A DNA stretch of 49,024 nucleotides from Candidatus Roizmanbacteria bacterium RIFCSPHIGHO2_02_FULL_37_13b. GTDB taxonomy: Bacteria; Patescibacteriota; Microgenomatia; UBA1406; HO2-37-13b. Below are positions 261-31,947 of the stretch, one piece after another. Below the pieces are notes generated by a model. The model ran no database searches, had not been told where the DNA came from, and saw only the letters and a program-made list of their open reading frames with translations. The DNA is taken from contig MFZK01000019.1 in assembly GCA_001789395.1 (NCBI GenBank), positions 1-49,024 on the forward strand. Reading direction: 5' to 3'. The position numbers and the translations under genes were made by a program. Every line of letters begins with the position of its first letter. Position 1 is the stretch's first letter.

Positions 261-1049
261 TCACACTTTTAAATTGTCAAGAAAATCACTAATCTTTCTC
301 TCCAAATTGTCTCTTCTTGATGAATGAATAATATCTATTATTGCGCTTCCAACCACTGCTATATCCACAATTGGGGCAAGCATTTTTATATGTTCTTTTT
401 TAGAAATACCAAATCCCACAGCAATAGGGATAGAAAAATATTTCCTGAGTCTTTGAAGATAAGATGTAAGATTGGGATCTAATTGATCACTTGCACCTGT
501 TATTCCTTGTCGAGCCGTGCAATATATGAAACCATTGGCAACAGCTGAATTTTTCTTAAGACGATCATCGGTTGATACCGGAGAAATAACTTGTATATTA
601 TGTAATTTATATTTTCGACAAGATGCCAAAAAATGTTCTTCGTTTTCCTCATCTATAGACATGTCTGGAACAATTAGTCCGGAAGCACCCGTAGATTGAG
701 AATCCCGGCAAAATTTTTCGACCCCATATTTAAAAACAGTATTATAATAAGCCATAAATAGAAGCGGTATTGAAACGTGAGAGGACAAATATTCCATTGC
801 TTTAAATGCATCTTTAACTTTAGTGCCATTTTCCAATGATCGTTCAGATGCCCGCATAATCGTCGGTCCATCCGCCAGTGGATCAGAGAAGGGGATCTGC
901 AACTCTACAAAATCCACTCCTTTTTCAGCCATCGTTTTTACTATGTTTATGGTTATTTCTAATGTTGGATAGCCAATAACCACATGCGTCATAAGTCCAA
1001 TTTTATTTACGTTCTTTATTTGTTTAAGTTTTATTTCGAGTTTAGTCAT
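261..1049 (-). CDS. trpA: Tryptophan synthase alpha subunit
   Basis: TrpA cleaves indole-3-glycerol phosphate to indole and glyceraldehyde 3-phosphate and passes indole to TrpB through the alpha-beta tunnel. The 262-residue length is typical. The [16 protein letters not shown] stretch near residue 48 carries the catalytic Glu and Asp; the usual ELGIPFSDP has Gly where this protein has Gln. Later landmarks are [23 protein letters not shown] (phosphate loop region) and PIAVGFGIS. Its ATG overlaps the trpB stop by 4 nt, so translation is probably coupled. It is the last trp gene of the run, with the aro leader region immediately after it. Confidence 0.96.
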
Positions 1050-2260
1050 AAGCCTTCTTTAACTATGTTTTCCATAAATTCATAAAATTTTTTATCTCTA
1101 AATGCTTTAGTAAGGATAAAAATATCTTTATCACCTCTGCCGGAAAGATTAACAACAATAACTTTGTTTTTAGCGAGTTTTGGTGCGGTTTTAATTGAAT
1201 ATGAAACAGCATGTGCTGATTCAAGCGCTGGAATGATTCCTTCAAGCTGGGCAAGTATTTGTACAGCCTTTAATGCTTCCTCATCGGTTACACTGACAAA
1301 TTCTACACGTTTTGTATCATGCAAGTGGCTTAATTCCGGTCCGATACCGGGGTAATCAAGTCCCGCTGAGATGCTATGTGTTTTTTGTAATTGTCCATCA
1401 TTATTTTGTAAAAAGTAGGATTTATATCCCTCGATGATCCCAACACTTCCGTTTGGAAAGCGCGTTGCATGTTCACCGATTTTTTTTCCTCTTCCACCTG
1501 CTTCTACTCCGACAAGATGAACTGATGATTCTTTAATAAATTCTGTAAAAGCACCCATTGCATTACTACCTCCACCAACACAGGCGATAACAACATCAGG
1601 TAATTTATTTTCGGCTTTACTGATTTGTTTCCTTATTTCTTTACCGACGACAGTTTGAAAATCACGATTCATCGTCGGAAACGGATGTGGACCAACTACA
1701 GAGCCAAGTACATAGTGGGTATCTTTTACATTTTCAATCCAATCTTTAATTGCCGCGTTAACAGCATCTTTCAAAGTTCGGCTACCAAATACTACCGGGA
1801 TAACCTTTGCACCGAGCTGTTCCATGAGAAACACATTCGGTCTTTGTCTTTTTATATCAACTTCACCCATGTAAACCGTGCAAGAGAAGCCGAGTTTGGC
1901 CGCTACGGAAGCTGTTGCAACGCCATGCTGACCAGCGCCAGTTTCTGCGATAAGTCGAGTCTTACCCATTCGTTTTGCAATTAAACCTTGACCAATACAA
2001 TGAGTGATTTTATGTGCACCTGTATGGTTAAGCCCTTCGTTTTTAAGATATATTTTTGCACCTGCTAATTTTTCTGTTAAATTTTTTGCAAAAACAAGAG
2101 GCGTAGGTCTACCGGCAAAATTTTGGAGTAAATCAATAAAATCCGAATTGAATTGTTTATCTTTCTTAGCCGAAATATAGACTTTCTCTAATTCCTCCAG
2201 TGCCGGAATTAACATCTCTGGTACATATCTACCACCATATTTTCCAAAATGTCCTTTCAT
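1046..2260 (-). CDS. trpB: Tryptophan synthase beta chain
   Basis: TrpB is the PLP enzyme that joins indole with L-serine to make tryptophan. The 404-residue protein starts [15 protein letters not shown], the usual TrpB N-terminus. It carries the HTGAHKI motif, whose Lys forms the PLP Schiff base, the [11 protein letters not shown] loop with the catalytic Glu, and the phosphate-binding [10 protein letters not shown]. This is the TrpB1 type that partners TrpA, consistent with trpA directly downstream. The start overlaps the end of trpF by 4 nt. Confidence 0.97.
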
Positions 2261-2856
2261 AGTTTTACTGCTTTTGCGTTAGAGATAAAATTAATAATTT
2301 TTTGTTCACTGGGTAGGCTATTTGTTTCGATCCCTGAAGCGACATCAACTCCAATAGGTCTAACAGTTCTGACAACCATGCCAACATTTTCTGGAGTTAA
2401 ACCGCCAGCAATAAAAAGTGGTTGTGATTGCGATAGTAGTCTTGCTTTTTTAGGGTCAACCAGTTTTCCTCTACCTTGATATTTTCTATCAAGAAGAAAA
2501 AAAGAAACATGTTTTGATAATTTGTGGAACTCATTTGAGTCCACCCCGACCATTTTGATAACTTTTGATTTAACATTTTTAATGTACTTGATATTTTCTT
2601 TCCCGTGAAGTTGAACGAGATCTAATGAAAGATAGCCAATTAATTCATTAACGTAACTGAGATCTTGATTTTGAAAGACTCCAACGACTTGAATACTAAC
2701 AGAAATATTTGAAAGAATTGTTTTAGCACTTTTTGGATTAATATATCGTTTTGATTTTGGTATAAAGTTAAACCCCAAAAAATCTGCTCCAGCGGAAACG
2801 GCTATTTTTGCATCGTGAGCTGTTCTAATTCCACAAATTTTTACCTTAACATTCAT
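2257..2856 (-). CDS. trpF: Phosphoribosylanthranilate isomerase
   Basis: TrpF converts phosphoribosylanthranilate to CdRP by an Amadori rearrangement. The protein is 199 residues, a usual TIM-barrel TrpF length. [11 protein letters not shown] at the N-terminus holds the catalytic Cys, GADFLGFNF follows, and the C-terminal half has [12 protein letters not shown] and [10 protein letters not shown], where the catalytic Asp and phosphate site lie. It is a separate gene here, not fused to trpC as in enterobacteria. It overlaps both neighbours by 4 nt, showing a tightly packed operon. Confidence 0.95.
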
Positions 2857-3596
2857 ACATTTTTGAGAGACGAAATATAACTTTTAATATTATTTGTTTT
2901 CATCAATCCCGTTCCAACAAGTACCGCTTTTGCACCCGCCTGTATGTATTTTTTAACATCAGATGTTGTGTTAATTCCCGAAAAGCCAAGCTTGATATAT
3001 TTATCAGGAATTTTTTTTATAAGTGCACAGGCCTTGTCGATATCTATGCTAAATGTTTGTAAGTTCCGGGCGTTAACTGCGATGAAAGAAGTTGTCGACA
3101 TAATTGCTTTTTCAAGATCATCTTTGTCATAGATTTCAACGATTGGTTCAAGACCGATGCTTTGAGCCAGTTCAACGAAAAAAATTAGTTTTTGTTTTGT
3201 CACTATTCGTGCAATAAGAAGTATTGTATCGGCACCATTCACTTTTGATTCATATATTTGATACGGATCAATGATGAAGTCTTTTTGTAAAATAGGGAGT
3301 TTTGTATTTTTTTTTACTTTTTTAAGGAGCTTAATATCCCCATTAAAAAAATTCTTATTGGTAATAACTGAAATTACATCGACTCCAGCTTTTTCATACG
3401 ATCGGGCACGTTTGACTATGTTTTGAGCTTTTCCTAAAATCCCCGCCGAGGGCGATTTAAGTTTTATTTCACCAATCAGAGCAACATCCTGTTTATTAAT
3501 TGTCTTTCTAAATCTATTTTGAGATGTTAGGGTATTTTTTATCTGTTTTAATTCCTTAATTTTATATTCCACGATTTCGTTAAGTATTGTTTGCAT
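2853..3596 (-). CDS. trpC: Indole-3-glycerol phosphate synthase
   Basis: TrpC closes the indole ring of CdRP to give indole-3-glycerol phosphate. The ATG at 3596 gives MQTILNEIVEYKIKEL, the usual TrpC opening, and a 247-residue protein; an upstream in-frame GTG at 3611 is less likely. Motifs include ALIGEIKLKSPSAG (substrate loop with catalytic Lys), LQKDFIIDPYQIYES and GADTILLIARI. The usual N-R-N-L segment reads VNARNL, a small departure. The start lies inside the last 17 nt of trpD. Confidence 0.95.
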   Translation of the reverse strand: MQTILNEIVEYKIKELKQIKNTLTSQNRFRKTINKQDVALIGEIKLKSPSAGILGKAQNIVKRARSYEKAGVDVISVITNKNFFNGDIKLLKKVKKNTKLPILQKDFIIDPYQIYESKVNGADTILLIARIVTKQKLIFFVELAQSIGLEPIVEIYDKDDLEKAIMSTTSFIAVNARNLQTFSIDIDKACALIKKIPDKYIKLGFSGINTTSDVKKYIQAGAKAVLVGTGLMKTNNIKSYISSLKNV

Positions 3597-4602
3597 ATTT
3601 TTGCGTCTCACGAATTAAATTTTGTAAAACTAATTGAGCTTTCCCACTATCAATAGATTCTTCAGCACATTTTATTCCAATTACAATAGTTTTGACGGCT
3701 CCTGCAATATATAAAGCACAGGCGCTATTTAAGACTACAATATCTCGCCTCGGGCCTTTTTTACCATTTAAAATTACTCGTATATGAGCGGCGTTTTCAT
3801 CTACAGTTCCTCCCCTAATTTCTTTCAATGAATATTTTATGAAGCCATAATCTGCAGGATTGATGTTAAATTTTTTTACAGAATTATTTTTTACCTCAAA
3901 GATCAATGTTTTTGATGAGATACTTATTTCATCCAAGCCGTCTTGGCTTGTAACAATAAGAAGATGTTTGTAATTAAGATATCTTCCGACATCTGCTAAC
4001 TTTTCCGCAATCTTTACACTTGGTACGCCGATAAGTTGTTTTTTTACAGATGCTGGATTTGTAAATGGTCCGAGAAAGTTAAAAATTGTTTTTGTCTTTA
4101 ATTCTTTTCGAACGCTAACCAGATTTTTCATAGCCGGATGAAATAGGGGAGCGAATAAAAAAACCATCCCTACTTTATTAAAAACACTTTCTGCATGTTT
4201 AGGAGATAATTGTAAATTTATACCTAAATGTTCTAGTACATCGGCGCTTCCACATTTGCTACTCGCGGCTCGGTTACCATGTTTTACAACTTTAACTCCT
4301 GCTCCTGCGATGACAAACGCAACAGCTGTTGAGATGTTGAAAGTTCCACTTCCATCTCCGCCTGTACCGCATACGTCTATAGCACCAGTTGCTTTTACAT
4401 TAATCATGTTTTTTCTCATCGTTTTAATAAATCCAACGATTTCTTTAGAAGATTCTCCTTTCATCCGAAGAGCTACAAGAATGGCTCCAATTTGGGCAGG
4501 TGAAAGTGCACCTTTTATGACATCATTGAGAAACAATTGAGTTTCTTCAGCTAATAAGTCTTGCTTTTTTATTATTTTATTTAATATGTATGTTGTGTCC
4601 AT
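3580..4602 (-). CDS. trpD: Anthranilate phosphoribosyltransferase
   Basis: TrpD transfers phosphoribose from PRPP to anthranilate. The 340-residue length matches the stand-alone form. The PRPP/Mg site VCGTGGDGSGTFNIST and the KHGNRAASSKCGSADVLE stretch are fully recognisable, and FLFAPLFHPAMK and FNFLGPFTNPA are also typical. TrpG is encoded separately just upstream, with a 2-nt gap, so there is no TrpGD fusion. Confidence 0.97.
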   Translation of the reverse strand: MDTTYILNKIIKKQDLLAEETQLFLNDVIKGALSPAQIGAILVALRMKGESSKEIVGFIKTMRKNMINVKATGAIDVCGTGGDGSGTFNISTAVAFVIAGAGVKVVKHGNRAASSKCGSADVLEHLGINLQLSPKHAESVFNKVGMVFLFAPLFHPAMKNLVSVRKELKTKTIFNFLGPFTNPASVKKQLIGVPSVKIAEKLADVGRYLNYKHLLIVTSQDGLDEISISSKTLIFEVKNNSVKKFNINPADYGFIKYSLKEIRGGTVDENAAHIRVILNGKKGPRRDIVVLNSACALYIAGAVKTIVIGIKCAEESIDSGKAQLVLQNLIRETQKYANNT

Positions 4603-4604
4603 AA

Positions 4605-5207
4605 TTACTTTTTTTTCATTAAAAAATTTGTTAATATCAATTTTCCTCCATCTGTAGCGAAAGACTCCGGGTGAAACTGTACTCCCTCTATTGGGTATAT
4701 AAGATGTCTTAAACCCATGATTTCTTTTGTATCATTGGATACAGCAGTGATCTTTAAACAATTGGGTAATGTTTTTTTTTCTGCAATGAGCGAATGGTAT
4801 CGCATAACTTCTAGATTCTGAGGCAGGCCGGTAAAAATTCCTTTTTCATCATGTTGGATAATGCTAGTTTTTCCATGCATCGGTTGTTTTGCCCGAACTA
4901 CTTTTCCCCCAAAATAATGAGCCATACCTTGCATACCCAAACATACTCCCAAAACCGGAGTTTCTTTACCAACGTTAGTTAGAACTTTTGCACATACACC
5001 AAAATATGCTAAGTCACTAGGATTTCCAGGACCAGGAGAAATAATAATTTTGTCATATCGTCTTTTTTTTATTTCTTTGATAGTAATTTCATCATTTCTG
5101 ACTACATTTAGTATGAATTTTTTTCCTTCATCGGTAAGAATTTCGCCGACGTACTGATAAAGATTGAACGTAAAAGAATCGTAGTTGTCTATTATTAATA
5201 TTTTCAT
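4605..5207 (-). CDS. trpG: Anthranilate synthase component II, glutamine amidotransferase
   Basis: TrpG supplies ammonia from glutamine to TrpE. The 200-residue class I amidotransferase has LIIDNYDSFTFNLYQY at the start, the oxyanion segment IISPGPGNP, the nucleophile Cys in GVCLGMQGMAHYFGG, and the His-Glu pair in GVQFHPESFAT. PabA proteins look very similar, but the position between trpE and trpD favours TrpG; dual use with a PabB elsewhere cannot be excluded. The start overlaps the trpE stop by 4 nt. Confidence 0.95.
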   Translation of the reverse strand: MKILIIDNYDSFTFNLYQYVGEILTDEGKKFILNVVRNDEITIKEIKKRRYDKIIISPGPGNPSDLAYFGVCAKVLTNVGKETPVLGVCLGMQGMAHYFGGKVVRAKQPMHGKTSIIQHDEKGIFTGLPQNLEVMRYHSLIAEKKTLPNCLKITAVSNDTKEIMGLRHLIYPIEGVQFHPESFATDGGKLILTNFLMKKK

Positions 5208-6574
5208 GTTTTTTTATACCTGACTGTCGACAGGCAGGCCTCTCTCATCGCAGCAAACTTGCTTTGAATTTCATCATATTCCTTCTCAGGTACCGAATCA
5301 TAGACAATACCTCCGCTTGTTTGGGCGTATGCATATTCATCTGAAATAAAAAGAGATCTGAGTGCAAGTGCGAAAGTGCAATCACCATTAAACCCAAAAT
5401 GACCAACGCCTCCTCCATATGGACCCCGCGGCATAGTCTCATTTGAGTTAATAATCTTAATTGTTTCTACTTTCGGAGTCCCACAGACTGTCCCCATGGG
5501 AAAATTGCAAGAAAGACCGGAAAACATGTCCTCTCCCGGACGGATTAATCCAACGATTTCACTTGAGATATGTTGAACATGGCTAAATTTCTTTATCGTC
5601 ATTAAATCTCTAATTTTAACTGTGCCAAATTTGGCCACTCTCCCAATATCATTTCTATGTAAATCTACAATCATATTATGTTCTGCTCTCTCTTTTGGAT
5701 CATTAAGGAGAGTTCGTGCAAGCATCTGATCCTCTAATTCATTTTTACCTCTTAAAATTGTGCCGGCTAATGGTCGTATAGTCATTTCTCCGTTTCGAAG
5801 TGAAAAAAGAAGCTCTGGACTAGCGCCGATAATTTTTTTATTGCCGAATTTAAGATAATACATAAATGGTGACGGGTTAAGAGTCCTTAGTTTTTGATAT
5901 ATTTTCAATGAATCCCCACTGATTCTATATTCTGTTTTAAAACCTACTTCGCATTGAAAAGTATTACCTGCTCTTATATGCACTTTTACTCTTTCAACCA
6001 TTTTTGCATGTTCTTTTTTGGTTAAGTCATCTTTAATAAAATTCACCTTTAATGATCTCTCTTTATATTTAATCTTCATGGCTTTTTTTAAAATATCGCT
6101 TCTGTCAGTATCGTAATAGAAGTAGAAAAGTTCGTTTGTTAGTTTATCGATTATCAATCCATCGGTAAATACTCCAAACATAAATTGATCAAAACGGTCA
6201 TGGATTTTAATATTCAGACTAGGTTCAAAATAGTTTACTGCTTCATAGCTAAGATAACCTACAAGTCCTCCAGCGTAGTTTCTAGTCAGAGTTGTTGGAG
6301 GCATAATTTCCCGTAATGTTAAATAGGGATTTTTTACTTGATAGATTTCACCATCAATTATTAAGTTATTTTTTCGGGCTGAAATAATATGTATCGGATC
6401 AAATCCAATAATTGAATGTCGAGAGAATTTTCCTTCTTCTCCAAGAGACTCAAATATAAAACATGTATTAAACAACCGCTCTATTTTTTGAAATAGTTTA
6501 AAAAAATCTAGGTTGTTTGCCAGTTTAATCATGACCGGTTTTTGCCTAATTGTAATTTTAGGTAACTTTTTCAT
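5204..6574 (-). CDS. trpE: Anthranilate synthase component I
   Basis: TrpE makes anthranilate from chorismate with ammonia from TrpG, the committed tryptophan step. From the ATG at 6574 the protein is 456 residues; an in-frame TTG at 6586 lies directly behind the terminator U-tract and is less likely. Catalytic-domain motifs are present: RPLAGTILRG, VDLHRNDIGRVA, GTVCGTPKVE, GPYGGGVGHFG and SVPEKEYDEIQSKF. The N-terminal FESLGEEGKFSRHSIIG resembles the segment that binds feedback tryptophan in other TrpE proteins, so allosteric control is plausible. It lies just after the trp attenuator. Confidence 0.96.
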   Translation of the reverse strand: MKKLPKITIRQKPVMIKLANNLDFFKLFQKIERLFNTCFIFESLGEEGKFSRHSIIGFDPIHIISARKNNLIIDGEIYQVKNPYLTLREIMPPTTLTRNYAGGLVGYLSYEAVNYFEPSLNIKIHDRFDQFMFGVFTDGLIIDKLTNELFYFYYDTDRSDILKKAMKIKYKERSLKVNFIKDDLTKKEHAKMVERVKVHIRAGNTFQCEVGFKTEYRISGDSLKIYQKLRTLNPSPFMYYLKFGNKKIIGASPELLFSLRNGEMTIRPLAGTILRGKNELEDQMLARTLLNDPKERAEHNMIVDLHRNDIGRVAKFGTVKIRDLMTIKKFSHVQHISSEIVGLIRPGEDMFSGLSCNFPMGTVCGTPKVETIKIINSNETMPRGPYGGGVGHFGFNGDCTFALALRSLFISDEYAYAQTSGGIVYDSVPEKEYDEIQSKFAAMREACLSTVRYKKT

Positions 6575-6587
6575 AAGATTTTTCAAT

Positions 6588-27941: not shown

Positions 27942-28127
27942 ATGAAACATTATATTTGTACCGGTGGTTGTCAGGGTGTATCTGATGTACCAGGGACATG
28001 TCAGGCGAAAGATTGTGTCAAGCATGGTCAGCCTTTAAATGAATGTGAATGTACAGATGATCTGCACCAGAAACCGGATCAATCTGAGAATCAAGAAAAG
28101 GAACAAGATACCGACAAATTAAGTTAA
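27942..28127 (+). CDS. Small Cys-rich protein (61 aa)
   Basis: The protein begins MKHYICTGGCQGVSDVPGTC and continues with QAKDCVKHGQPLNECECTDD, followed by a charged low-complexity tail. Six Cys and two His in the first 40 residues suggest a metal-binding knuckle or rubredoxin-like site. TATAAT ends 9 nt before the ATG. Small proteins of this type occur in uncultured CPR genomes, as I recall, but no function is known to me. Confidence 0.65.
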   Translation: MKHYICTGGCQGVSDVPGTCQAKDCVKHGQPLNECECTDDLHQKPDQSENQEKEQDTDKLS

Positions 28128-28143
28128 TATTATTATTTTTTTT

Positions 28144-28311
28144 GAAGCTGGGTATTAGCCATTTTCCGATCAAATCGGAAGAGAAGGTTAGTTTTTATAC
28201 GGGAACACTGTGTGAATCAGTGACTGTGCCGCAGCGGTTAACCCGAACAAATTTTCGTCAAGAAAATTTGCGCGGGTAAAGTCCGAAGACCGACCCAACT
28301 TCCATTTTTTT
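28144..28311 (+). ncRNA. Cobalamin riboswitch
   Basis: The core is clear: GGGAACACTG, TGTGAATC, GTGCCGCAGCGG (the B12 box, a variant of the usual GCCACTG) and GTCCGAAGACC, in the order of the cobalamin aptamer. GAAGCTGGGT (28144-28153) pairs with ACCCAACTTC (28293-28302), one mismatch in ten, as the closing P1 helix. A run of seven T (28305-28311) starts 2 nt after P1, so the ligand-stabilised P1 may act as the terminator arm. A weak TCCC/GGGA hairpin (28313-28326) sits ahead of the start codon. The controlled gene is at 28332. Whether it reads adenosyl- or methylcobalamin is not decided. Confidence 0.88.
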
Positions 28312-28331
28312 GTCCCCGAGCAGGGAAAATT

Positions 28332-29420
28332 ATGGCTTTTGTTGGAGAAACACTAAAAACTTTCAGTATTAATCCTCGTGCAGAAAGCATAAGATTAAAT
28401 CAACTCAATGGGCCGGAACGTCAATGGGTCTTTTGGCAGAATCTTGAAGCGTATACAAATGAAGTCGTTGCAGACAAGCCGGTTTCAATTTTATATCACT
28501 ATTGGGTAGATGGTCAGGGAGAGATTTTTACTGATCCATCGTTTAAACCTGTATTTAACTTGAGTTTGCAGTTAGACGAACGAGAAAGAGGAGGAATGGC
28601 TCGTGAAGGTATTAGAAGAGCTGTTGATTTAGCACGAATTAATCCGGGACAGATGGTAGGTCTTTATAGTCCTCCAGGACCAGCTAGTTTTGATCAAGAT
28701 TCCAGTAATCCCTATACACAAATAACTTATTCTTATGGCCAATTTTATTTAATGTCGAGCGACGGGGAAAAAATCAATGCAATTGCTATTAAAATATCAA
28801 AAGAGGGAGAACCATGGGTTGCTGATATGATGCCGGCAACATTTCATGAAAGGTCGTATGCGGAGGACGATCCAAAGGAGATTGCCATATTAATCCAAAA
28901 CCCAGTGCTGTTAATTGATCTTAATTCATCTACAAATAAACTTGAATCAAGCAATCCTATCGTCTATAAAGGGCGAGATAAAACCTTTTATTTGGATGAA
29001 GTTCTACGTCAAATACATAATACCTTTACAGGATTGAGTAAACCAACTATTAATTATTATGATAAAACTCTATACGCATTGGAAGAATATGAGGTCACAA
29101 AAGAAGCCATTTTACAGGCGTATTTAACGGTAATACAGCAATATATGCAAATAAATGGATTGCATTCCGTTGAGTTAATGGGTAGTTGTGGAGGCAATCA
29201 GGCAACATCATTAATTGAAATCGAAGAGATATTGGGTATTAGTCATAATCTTTTTGATAATCCTTTCGCCAAACTTTTATCCGGTTTGTCATCAATTTAC
29301 AGAGAATTAATCCAAAATAGTGATAATAATGGAAACTATGATTATCATGATGGTATCTGTGATAAGTGCAAGAGACAAGCTAAGATAGGTCCATGTAATT
29401 ATTGTAAGCAATGCGAATAA
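28332..29420 (+). CDS. Unrecognised protein under a cobalamin riboswitch, with C-terminal Cys cluster
   Basis: I do not recognise this 362-residue protein. There is no signal peptide or membrane helix, so it should be cytosolic. The N-terminal 180 residues are mixed alpha/beta (SILYHYWVDGQGEIFTDP, NLSLQLDERERGGMAREG, GQMVGLYSPPGPASFD). A helical part includes HSVELMGSCGGNQATSLIEI, and the end is CDKCKRQAKIGPCNYCKQC, a likely zinc or iron-sulfur knuckle with four CxxC-type cysteines plus one. Control by a B12 riboswitch predicts a role in B12 uptake or remodelling, or a B12-independent stand-in for a B12 enzyme. No DXHXXG cobalamin-binding motif is visible. Confidence 0.8.
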   Translation: MAFVGETLKTFSINPRAESIRLNQLNGPERQWVFWQNLEAYTNEVVADKPVSILYHYWVDGQGEIFTDPSFKPVFNLSLQLDERERGGMAREGIRRAVDLARINPGQMVGLYSPPGPASFDQDSSNPYTQITYSYGQFYLMSSDGEKINAIAIKISKEGEPWVADMMPATFHERSYAEDDPKEIAILIQNPVLLIDLNSSTNKLESSNPIVYKGRDKTFYLDEVLRQIHNTFTGLSKPTINYYDKTLYALEEYEVTKEAILQAYLTVIQQYMQINGLHSVELMGSCGGNQATSLIEIEEILGISHNLFDNPFAKLLSGLSSIYRELIQNSDNNGNYDYHDGICDKCKRQAKIGPCNYCKQCE

Positions 29421-29761: not shown

Positions 29762-30817
29762 CTATCTACCATACTTGTCACTTGATGTTATTAGAGCGTG
29801 AATTAAATCAGATAAGACCAAAAGACCGATCGTTTTCCCTGATTTATCTACCACTCCCGCTGCATGTATTTTGGTCTGATGCATTTTAATTATTATATTA
29901 TCCGCTCGTTCCGAATCTTTAATTGTAAGTATTTTACGGATTAATCCGTATTTTTTAATTTTTTTATCATAATCGACCGAAGTTTTTATCGTTAGAATAT
30001 CGGTAGCCTGGATAAAGCCAATAATACGTTTCGATGGATCTCTAAAAATAGGATAACGATTATAAATAAAATGACTCGAAAGTACACTTTTTTTGATATA
30101 AGCCAATGTATCGTCTGCATTAAAACCTACCAATGATTTTATATTGATCATGACGTTTTTTATTTTTATTGTTCTAAGTCTAAAGACATTAAAAGTAATT
30201 ATTTTTTCAGCTTTTGATATCACCCGGTCTTTGTGTGACTCATTTAAAATAATTTTTATTTCTTTTACTGAATATCCTTGTTTATCAAAAAGTGAGGTAG
30301 AAAGACCAATGAGAGCTAAAATTTTCTTGGCCATACGATTAAAAAAATTAATTATAGGTAAAAATATCATCACAAATATTGAGAGTGGAGTTATTAATAT
30401 CATTCCATAAGTTAAGGGATTGTAAAGAATGATTAGTTTAGGTATTAATTCACCAAAGATGAGATTAAAAAGCGTCAAAATTATAAAAGCACCAACAGCG
30501 ACCAAAGTAGCATTCCAGAGAAAATACAATGGAGAATTCTTTGCGGGAGCAAAGACAAAGAGTATTTTTTCCAAGATAGGATGACCAAGCCATCCTAATG
30601 CAATACTTGTTATTGTATTGCCGATTTGAGTCGCTGATATATAGATATCCATATTGGCCAAGGCTATTGCCATGAGTCTTGCCAATCTATTTTCTTTATG
30701 CGTCAAGGAGGCGATTTTTGTTCGTCTAACCTGAAGCAAAGCCGTTTCAGAAGCGACAAAGAAACCATTTATAACAATTAGACAAATAATTGTTATAGCT
30801 TGACTAATATACTCCAT
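29762..30817 (-). CDS. CNNM/CorC-like (hemolysin family) membrane protein with CBS domains
   Basis: The 351-residue protein has an N-terminal DUF21 membrane domain with four helices (ITIICLIVINGFFVASETALLQVRR; IGNTITSIALGWLG; LTLFNLIFGELIPKLIILYNP), a cytosolic linker and a pair of CBS domains (about 205-345). DUF21-CBS proteins export Mg2+ or other divalent ions. The FGELIPK signature is intact. The usual C-terminal CorC-HlyC domain is missing, so this is a shorter form. It follows the thiamine pyrophosphokinase gene by 10 nt, and Mg-thiamine diphosphate use could explain the link, though that is speculation. Confidence 0.85.
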   Translation of the reverse strand: MEYISQAITIICLIVINGFFVASETALLQVRRTKIASLTHKENRLARLMAIALANMDIYISATQIGNTITSIALGWLGHPILEKILFVFAPAKNSPLYFLWNATLVAVGAFIILTLFNLIFGELIPKLIILYNPLTYGMILITPLSIFVMIFLPIINFFNRMAKKILALIGLSTSLFDKQGYSVKEIKIILNESHKDRVISKAEKIITFNVFRLRTIKIKNVMINIKSLVGFNADDTLAYIKKSVLSSHFIYNRYPIFRDPSKRIIGFIQATDILTIKTSVDYDKKIKKYGLIRKILTIKDSERADNIIIKMHQTKIHAAGVVDKSGKTIGLLVLSDLIHALITSSDKYGR

Positions 30818-31546: not shown

Positions 31547-31556
31547 GTAATCAAAC

Positions 31557-31642
31557 TTATGGGGAGCTTGTTAAATCAGGCTGAGATTCCCGAAATTATC
31601 GGGTGACCCAATGAACCTGTACGGATAATGCCGTCGGAGGGA
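31557..31642 (+). ncRNA. TPP riboswitch (THI element)
   Basis: The conserved thi-box parts appear in order: GGGGAGC, CAGGCTGAGATTCCCG, GGGTGACCC, AATGAACCTGT, GGATAATGCC and GTCGGAGGGAA. Both the pyrimidine-sensor (CTGAGA) and pyrophosphate-sensor helices are recognisable. GGAGGG (31636-31641) in the last conserved strand is also the ribosome binding site 6 nt ahead of the ATG at 31648. No terminator is seen, so TPP binding should block translation. It controls the thiamine transport genes that follow. Confidence 0.95.
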
Positions 31643-31647
31643 AAAAT

Positions 31648-31947
31648 ATGCCAAACGCTTCAATTGCTTTACAAATTCTACCAACTGTCAAAAATACCCG
31701 TGATTCATGGAAAATTATTGATAAAGTAATCGCGTTTATTAAAAAATCGGGCGTGAACTTTGAAGTTGGGCCGATGGAAACAACCATGGAAGGCGATCTT
31801 GATAAACTGCTTCAAATTGTCAATGCAGCACAAAAACTAGCTATTGAACATGGTTCATCTGGAGTATTTTCGAATGTCAAGATTATCTATAATCCAAAAG
31901 GGATTGCATCAATGAAGAAGAAAGTCACAAAACACCGAGAAAAATAA
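31648..31947 (+). CDS. MTH1187/YkoF-like thiamine-binding protein
   Basis: The 99-residue protein matches the DUF77 family: ALQILPTVKNTRDSWKIIDK, FEVGPMETTMEGDLDKLLQI and HGSSGVFSNVKIIYNP. Members form tetramers and bind thiamine or a related pyrimidine; they are often the first gene of thiamine transporter operons. The TPP riboswitch directly upstream agrees. It likely buffers or delivers thiamine or hydroxymethylpyrimidine in the cytosol. Confidence 0.9.
   Translation: MPNASIALQILPTVKNTRDSWKIIDKVIAFIKKSGVNFEVGPMETTMEGDLDKLLQIVNAAQKLAIEHGSSGVFSNVKIIYNPKGIASMKKKVTKHREK

Follow-up and report, generated by a model that had tools for sequence, protein, structure and literature searches.

Our data indicate that a protein family without annotation, here called X, is associated with a cobalamin riboswitch and with the genes for the adenosylcobalamin (AdoCbl)-dependent ribonucleotide reductase (RNR) NrdJ and for cobalamin adenosyltransferase. 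The family member under study was found in a window of 49,024 nucleotides, the whole stretch of DNA that was analysed (contig MFZK01000019.1 of Candidatus Roizmanbacteria bacterium RIFCSPHIGHO2_02_FULL_37_13b). As X lies behind a B12 switch and accompanies a B12-dependent RNR, it probably helps the cells to cope with B12 scarcity. With somewhat less than even confidence, we propose that the riboswitch could be a B12-repressed translational switch over X, and that X could be a low-AdoCbl response protein which binds corrinoid or manages its supply to the adenosyltransferase and NrdJ.

The riboswitch and its expression platform

A cobalamin riboswitch had been recognised here in the initial annotation, and the covariance model bears this out: over its whole length the aptamer scores 55.4 bits against an RF00174 gathering score of 31.5. 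The start given there, 28144, does lie inside the aptamer, but the match begins 11 nt earlier, at 28133. A genome scan showed that this is the sole RF00174 match in the 1.16-Mb assembly. The features of the locus are collected in Table 1.

Table 1. Coordinates of the riboswitch and of ORF X in the window
Feature	Coordinates	Strand	Evidence
Cobalamin riboswitch aptamer (RF00174)	28133..28312	+	cmscan 55.4 bits, E 3.7e-11, full model 1-189
L5 loop UGCCG, proposed partner of L13	28227..28231	+	Sequence; UGCCG and L13 hairpin in 60/67 homologous leaders
B12-box-like segment AGTCCGAAGACCGAC	28280..28294	+	Sequence; inside RF00174 match
P13/L13 platform hairpin TCCC-CGAGCA-GGGA	28313..28326	+	Sequence; same hairpin ahead of homologues
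ORF X, 362 aa, ATG start, member of the Microgenomatia family	28332..29420	+	ORF list, family alignments
PAS-like core of X (tentative), residues ~49-157	28476..28802	+	AlphaFold2 model, conservation
Cys286 in GSCGG, conserved internal Cys	29187..29189	+	Alignments
Five-Cys zinc-ribbon-like tail CDKCKRQAKIGPCNYCKQC (C343, C346, C355, C358, C361)	29358..29414	+	57-member alignment

The 3' arm of the P13/L13 hairpin holds a Shine-Dalgarno-like AGGGA just ahead of the start of X, and the L13 loop, CG-N1-2-GCA, is complementary to the UGCCG of L5 with one or two bases bulged. This kissing-loop complementarity, together with the platform, is present in the window and in 60 of the 67 upstream regions, as compared to 0.6% of shuffles for the same pair of motifs. 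Stem changes in the L13 hairpin of homologues preserve pairing (for example CCT..AGG), and the hairpin lies 4-12 nt from the start in most leaders. Such a platform suggests a translational OFF switch, and it is from this anatomy that we infer repression of X by B12. When AdoCbl is plentiful, ligand binding would favour kissing of L5 with L13, the Shine-Dalgarno sequence would be hidden in the L13 hairpin and X would not be made; when AdoCbl is scarce, X would be translated. In two relatives (G087 and G111) an intrinsic-terminator-like hairpin stands ahead of X and its CTCGGG arm complements the CCCGAG of L13, a layout which is predicted to be an OFF arrangement as well. G132 also carries a terminator-like hairpin after L13, with a 5' arm CTCGGG complementing CCCGAG.

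The gene 3' of X (29762-30817) lies on the minus strand and X is therefore the only gene behind the switch, as had been claimed. Directly 5' of the riboswitch, at 27942-28127 on the plus strand, there is a Cys-rich ORF of 61 residues with no Pfam match. Elsewhere in the window a TPP riboswitch (31550-31659, plus strand, 64 bits) overlaps the start of an ORF at 31648; this ORF is the first of a group of genes that look like a thiamine-type ABC transporter. By reading, the ORFs at 261-6586 on the minus strand resemble a complete tryptophan biosynthesis operon, which is notable for a reduced genome.

Anatomy and divergence of X

X had been described as a protein of 362 residues with no recognisable family and the searches agree, as neither Pfam nor NCBIfam gave a match up to E 10 and none was found among PDB sequences. 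No known B12-binding motif was found in X by sequence and Pfam. The AlphaFold2 model of residues 40-198 has a pLDDT of 82.7. The best VIA match, at Z 7.8 over 127 aligned residues, was the PAS domain of VqmA, just under the background line of the tool at Z 8, and PAS domains form the majority among the VIA matches listed for the core. Foldseek gave no match at E ≤ 0.001, either with the full model or with the core alone. The core of X may tentatively be taken as a PAS-like domain. S113 is invariant in an alignment of 57 members, while for R86 and P114 this is nearly the case. By alignment reading the internal Cys is also conserved, mostly in the context GSC[G/P] and in a few members as YGCS or SGCxGG, its exact column shifting among members.

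The Cys-rich tail is as the initial annotation described it. C343 and C346 are invariant and C355, C358 and C361 are present in at least 90% of the 57 members; the pairs C343/C346 and C355/C358 supply the two CxxC knuckles of a zinc ribbon. Weak Pfam zinc-ribbon matches were obtained for several members, and the tail is predicted to bind zinc. Tail types vary between members and the same type reappears in distant X groups. In each genome searched strong tail matches fall on X alone, and the tail was accordingly rejected as a shared sorting signal.

When 144 relatives were searched with the single sequence, 31 genomes gave matches, including the genome of the window, with named members in Roizmanbacteria and Gottesmanbacteria. 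After the addition of diverged members found behind riboswitches, profile comparison showed three X groups to be homologous, and a profile of 57 members brought the number of X loci among the relatives to 84. When 379 genomes of the phylum were sampled, all clear matches fell within the class Microgenomatia; matches outside the class were weak and mainly limited to the Cys-rich C-terminal region. Judged by these searches, full-length X is confined to Microgenomatia. The full-family alignment was too diverged for a locus search, which was for this reason done with an alignment of five sequences; with the same alignment no relative was found among viral contigs.

The family has diverged rapidly, as the median identity of X is 25% as compared to 67% for nrdR and 49% for pduO (nrdJ was left out of this comparison, its median having two sequences only). 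At the same time X is under purifying selection, as three pairs of closely related homologues have dN/dS of 0.05-0.23. It could be argued from these two observations that X is exported or acts at the surface and helps to get B12 from a partner cell, the fast-changing body and the varied tails being matched to different partners. The recurrence of several tail types in distant X groups, and genes nearby which read like parts of a secretion apparatus in several relatives, would agree with such a role. However, a signal peptide or membrane segment is not apparent on sequence reading, X apparently being cytosolic as the earlier description had it, and the tail, unlike a general export signal, is absent from the other proteins of the genome. 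Of all the roles considered for X, export is the one we hold least probable.

Pairing of the riboswitch with X among relatives

The proposed link of the protein to B12 has gained ground, as the same arrangement stands ahead of every homologue examined. The initial annotation had raised the case of homologues occurring mostly without the riboswitch; instead a B12 riboswitch lies upstream in all 84 of the 84 X loci. In 71 it was found by the genome scan, with an RF00174 match at most 450 nt upstream of X on the same strand, and in the remaining 13 by closer reading. Among these 13, the covariance match is at or above gathering in G008, G132, G122 and G064, below gathering in G097 and G042, and very weak (E 0.42) in G009. 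In the other six (G028, G034, G087, G111, G058 and G138) it was recognised by visual inspection of the conserved core and of the platform, which is weaker evidence.

Conversely, 71 of the 93 riboswitch sites in these genomes precede X. The remaining 22 sites were not assigned to X; some lie ahead of divergent X-like genes whose tail is rich in Cys. Others head X2, a larger protein family in the same slot as X, an ORF reading as metE (G033), or genes which are DUF4430-like by sequence likeness (G099 and G061). At the metE site (L040) the riboswitch scores 98.7 bits and the genome also has X; MetE is a textbook B12-repressed gene. In some families X2, of 540-810 residues, is found behind the switch and after nrdJ-pduO (L085, L086, L126, L142 and L151). 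One member of X2 was tested against Pfam and had no match, and profile comparison found no relationship between the X2 proteins of L085 and L086 and X.

Operon context and the possible role of X

The general association with B12 can now be sharpened to a link with the AdoCbl-dependent RNR and the cobalamin adenosyltransferase. This link is invisible from the window, because X has left the operon concerned in its own genome. The only PF02867 match of that genome is the class II NrdJ on contig C22, where the gene order is nrdR-nrdJ-pduO-DUF4430-DUF6580-Y with thioredoxin on the opposite strand; the family names of the smaller operon genes were checked by Pfam on relatives. The order conserved in relatives is nrdR-nrdJ-pduO-(DUF4430-DUF6580)-[switch-X]-Y-thioredoxin, and in many of them the riboswitch and X sit between the nrdR-nrdJ-pduO-DUF genes and Y. 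On C22 the slot for X is empty and the riboswitch and X stand by themselves on C19, so that the switch appears to have moved along with its gene. In its own genome the riboswitch governs X alone and the DUF4430 and DUF6580 genes are without one; X therefore need not belong to acquisition. Uptake had been among the functions first suggested, but as a membrane importer X finds no backing, since it has no Pfam match and the place of an importer in the operon is filled by the DUF4430 and DUF6580 genes.

At 33 of the 84 X loci nrdJ or pduO is found on the same strand, no more than 6 kb upstream. NrdJ is present in 77 of the 84 X genomes, a count which leaves out G069, and PduO in 75. When both types are considered, a PduO- or BtuR-type adenosyltransferase accompanies X in nearly all X genomes. 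In G084, G108, G123 and G139, which are without PduO, a CobA/BtuR-type enzyme is encoded near nrdJ and appears to have replaced the PduO type. X or an X-like gene is kept beside it, and X is therefore unlikely to be an adenosyltransferase itself; this candidate was rejected as X has no Pfam match and separate PF01923 or PF02572 genes are present. X as a recognisable RNR was likewise not supported, PF02867 being absent from it. It should be noted here that in eight genomes (G041, G047, G049, G061, G072, G100, G103 and G121) the match to NrdJ breaks near profile position 281 inside a much longer open frame, a pattern that looks like inteins. A possible X remnant in a genome without NrdJ (G003) was set aside because the contig stops at the gene.

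The gene order and the co-occurrence with nrdJ, and the retention of X with either type of adenosyltransferase, could also mean that X manages NrdJ rather than the cofactor when B12 is low. The PAS-like domain would then sense a ligand and the tail would dock on NrdJ or regulate it; X might hold the apo-enzyme, damp dNTP synthesis or signal arrest. NrdJ of the same genome ends in a six-Cys domain, and the tail of X has a related layout, CxxC-xn-CxxC-xn-C. Domains of the six-Cys kind mediate re-reduction of the active site, and a native reductant has not been found (PMC5704485). On the other side, the tail of X has five Cys and not six, and its types are unlike the NrdJ domain in length and sequence; and a reductant for NrdJ turnover should not be repressed at plentiful B12. 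We regard management of NrdJ as rather unlikely.

In four genomes (G132, G433, G449 and G475) one switch heads pduO and X follows pduO at -13 to +12 nt, so that both genes are probably one transcription unit under a single switch. Such sharing fits use of the cofactor and not its replacement, and it bears on the idea that X is a B12-sparing enzyme which, when NrdJ is short of AdoCbl, provides deoxynucleotides by a route free of this cofactor or reduces the demand for them. In other bacteria B12-repressed genes often code for B12-independent isozymes, and the metE-like ORF behind such a switch in G033 is in line with this; R86, S113 and the internal Cys are conserved and could be catalytic. However, X has no RNR domain, its models have no RNR-like barrel and just one internal Cys is widely conserved. 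A sparing enzyme is thus improbable, and hardly more credible than export. A broader form of the idea sees in X a B12-sparing factor of a new kind, which keeps up the supply of DNA precursors when AdoCbl runs out, either through a cofactor-free activity at a Cys/Arg/Ser site or by re-tuning NrdJ, and so enables these reduced genomes to make do with one B12-dependent RNR. We give it a small chance, slightly above that of the enzyme proper.

We return to corrinoid handling as the preferred reading. X would serve the AdoCbl economy of a cell in which the class II NrdJ is the one PF02867 RNR recognised, and would bind and handle scarce corrinoid by capture, reduction or transfer to the adenosyltransferase and NrdJ. 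Several points speak against it. X shows no direct sign of corrinoid binding, neither a B12-binding motif nor a Pfam match, and the modelled PAS-like fold falls under the background line of Z 8. Its divergence, much faster than that of nrdR and pduO, is unusual for a core factor in cofactor handling. G109, a genome 96% complete, keeps the switch and a short X-like gene with no recognised NrdJ or adenosyltransferase, and in some lineages the same slot is filled by the larger and apparently unrelated X2.

The kind of riboswitch is known; of the X family, its link with nrdJ and the adenosyltransferase and its spread in Microgenomatia no description was found in the searched literature, most subscription papers lying outside the search. 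Within it no paper joined cobalamin riboswitches with the Candidate Phyla Radiation or Patescibacteria, and nothing was found on Microgenomates together with RNR and adenosylcobalamin. Members of Microgenomatia seem to need B12 from outside for the synthesis of DNA. For this large class of uncultivated bacteria X is a concrete candidate for a low-B12 response gene, and a strong candidate either for a step that is missing from B12 handling or for a means of surviving when B12 is lacking.

Comparison with known systems

The aptamer of the window matches the clan of RF00174 and AdoCbl-II (RF01689) riboswitches with an L5-L13 kissing loop, such as env8, and its ligand would be cobalamin in the AdoCbl or MeCbl form. 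It differs from the known members of the clan in that the regulated gene belongs to a family without annotation, and in that some X clades carry a terminator-like platform in place of the translational one.

Proteins of the MMADHC/MMACHC type handle corrinoid in the cytosol after its import and before its adenosylation, and contact the cobalt through a thiolate. They resemble X in idea only; no sequence or fold match to them was present among the matches listed for X. A precedent for X is offered by BtuH of Bacteroidetes, a formerly unknown protein of a B12 system which is reported to bind B12 directly (PMC8941943). BtuH comes from transport systems, whereas X is apparently cytosolic and without a match in Pfam.

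The Cys-rich zinc-finger domain at the C terminus of class II RNRs has six Cys, of which four bind zinc and two have a redox function (Loderer 2017, PMC5704485). X shares with it the Cys layout near the C terminus and is encoded near nrdJ in many relatives. In X, however, the tail sits on an unrelated body, and as it has five Cys and the opposite regulation by B12 is expected, we do not claim X as a member of this class of domains. The closest parallel in gene content is the class II RNR operon nrdJ-pduO. The same genes are present in conserved order in the relatives, and on C22 of the genome of the window they are found without X; as compared to the known operons, the unit of Microgenomatia has an extra riboswitch-controlled gene, which is either X or X2.
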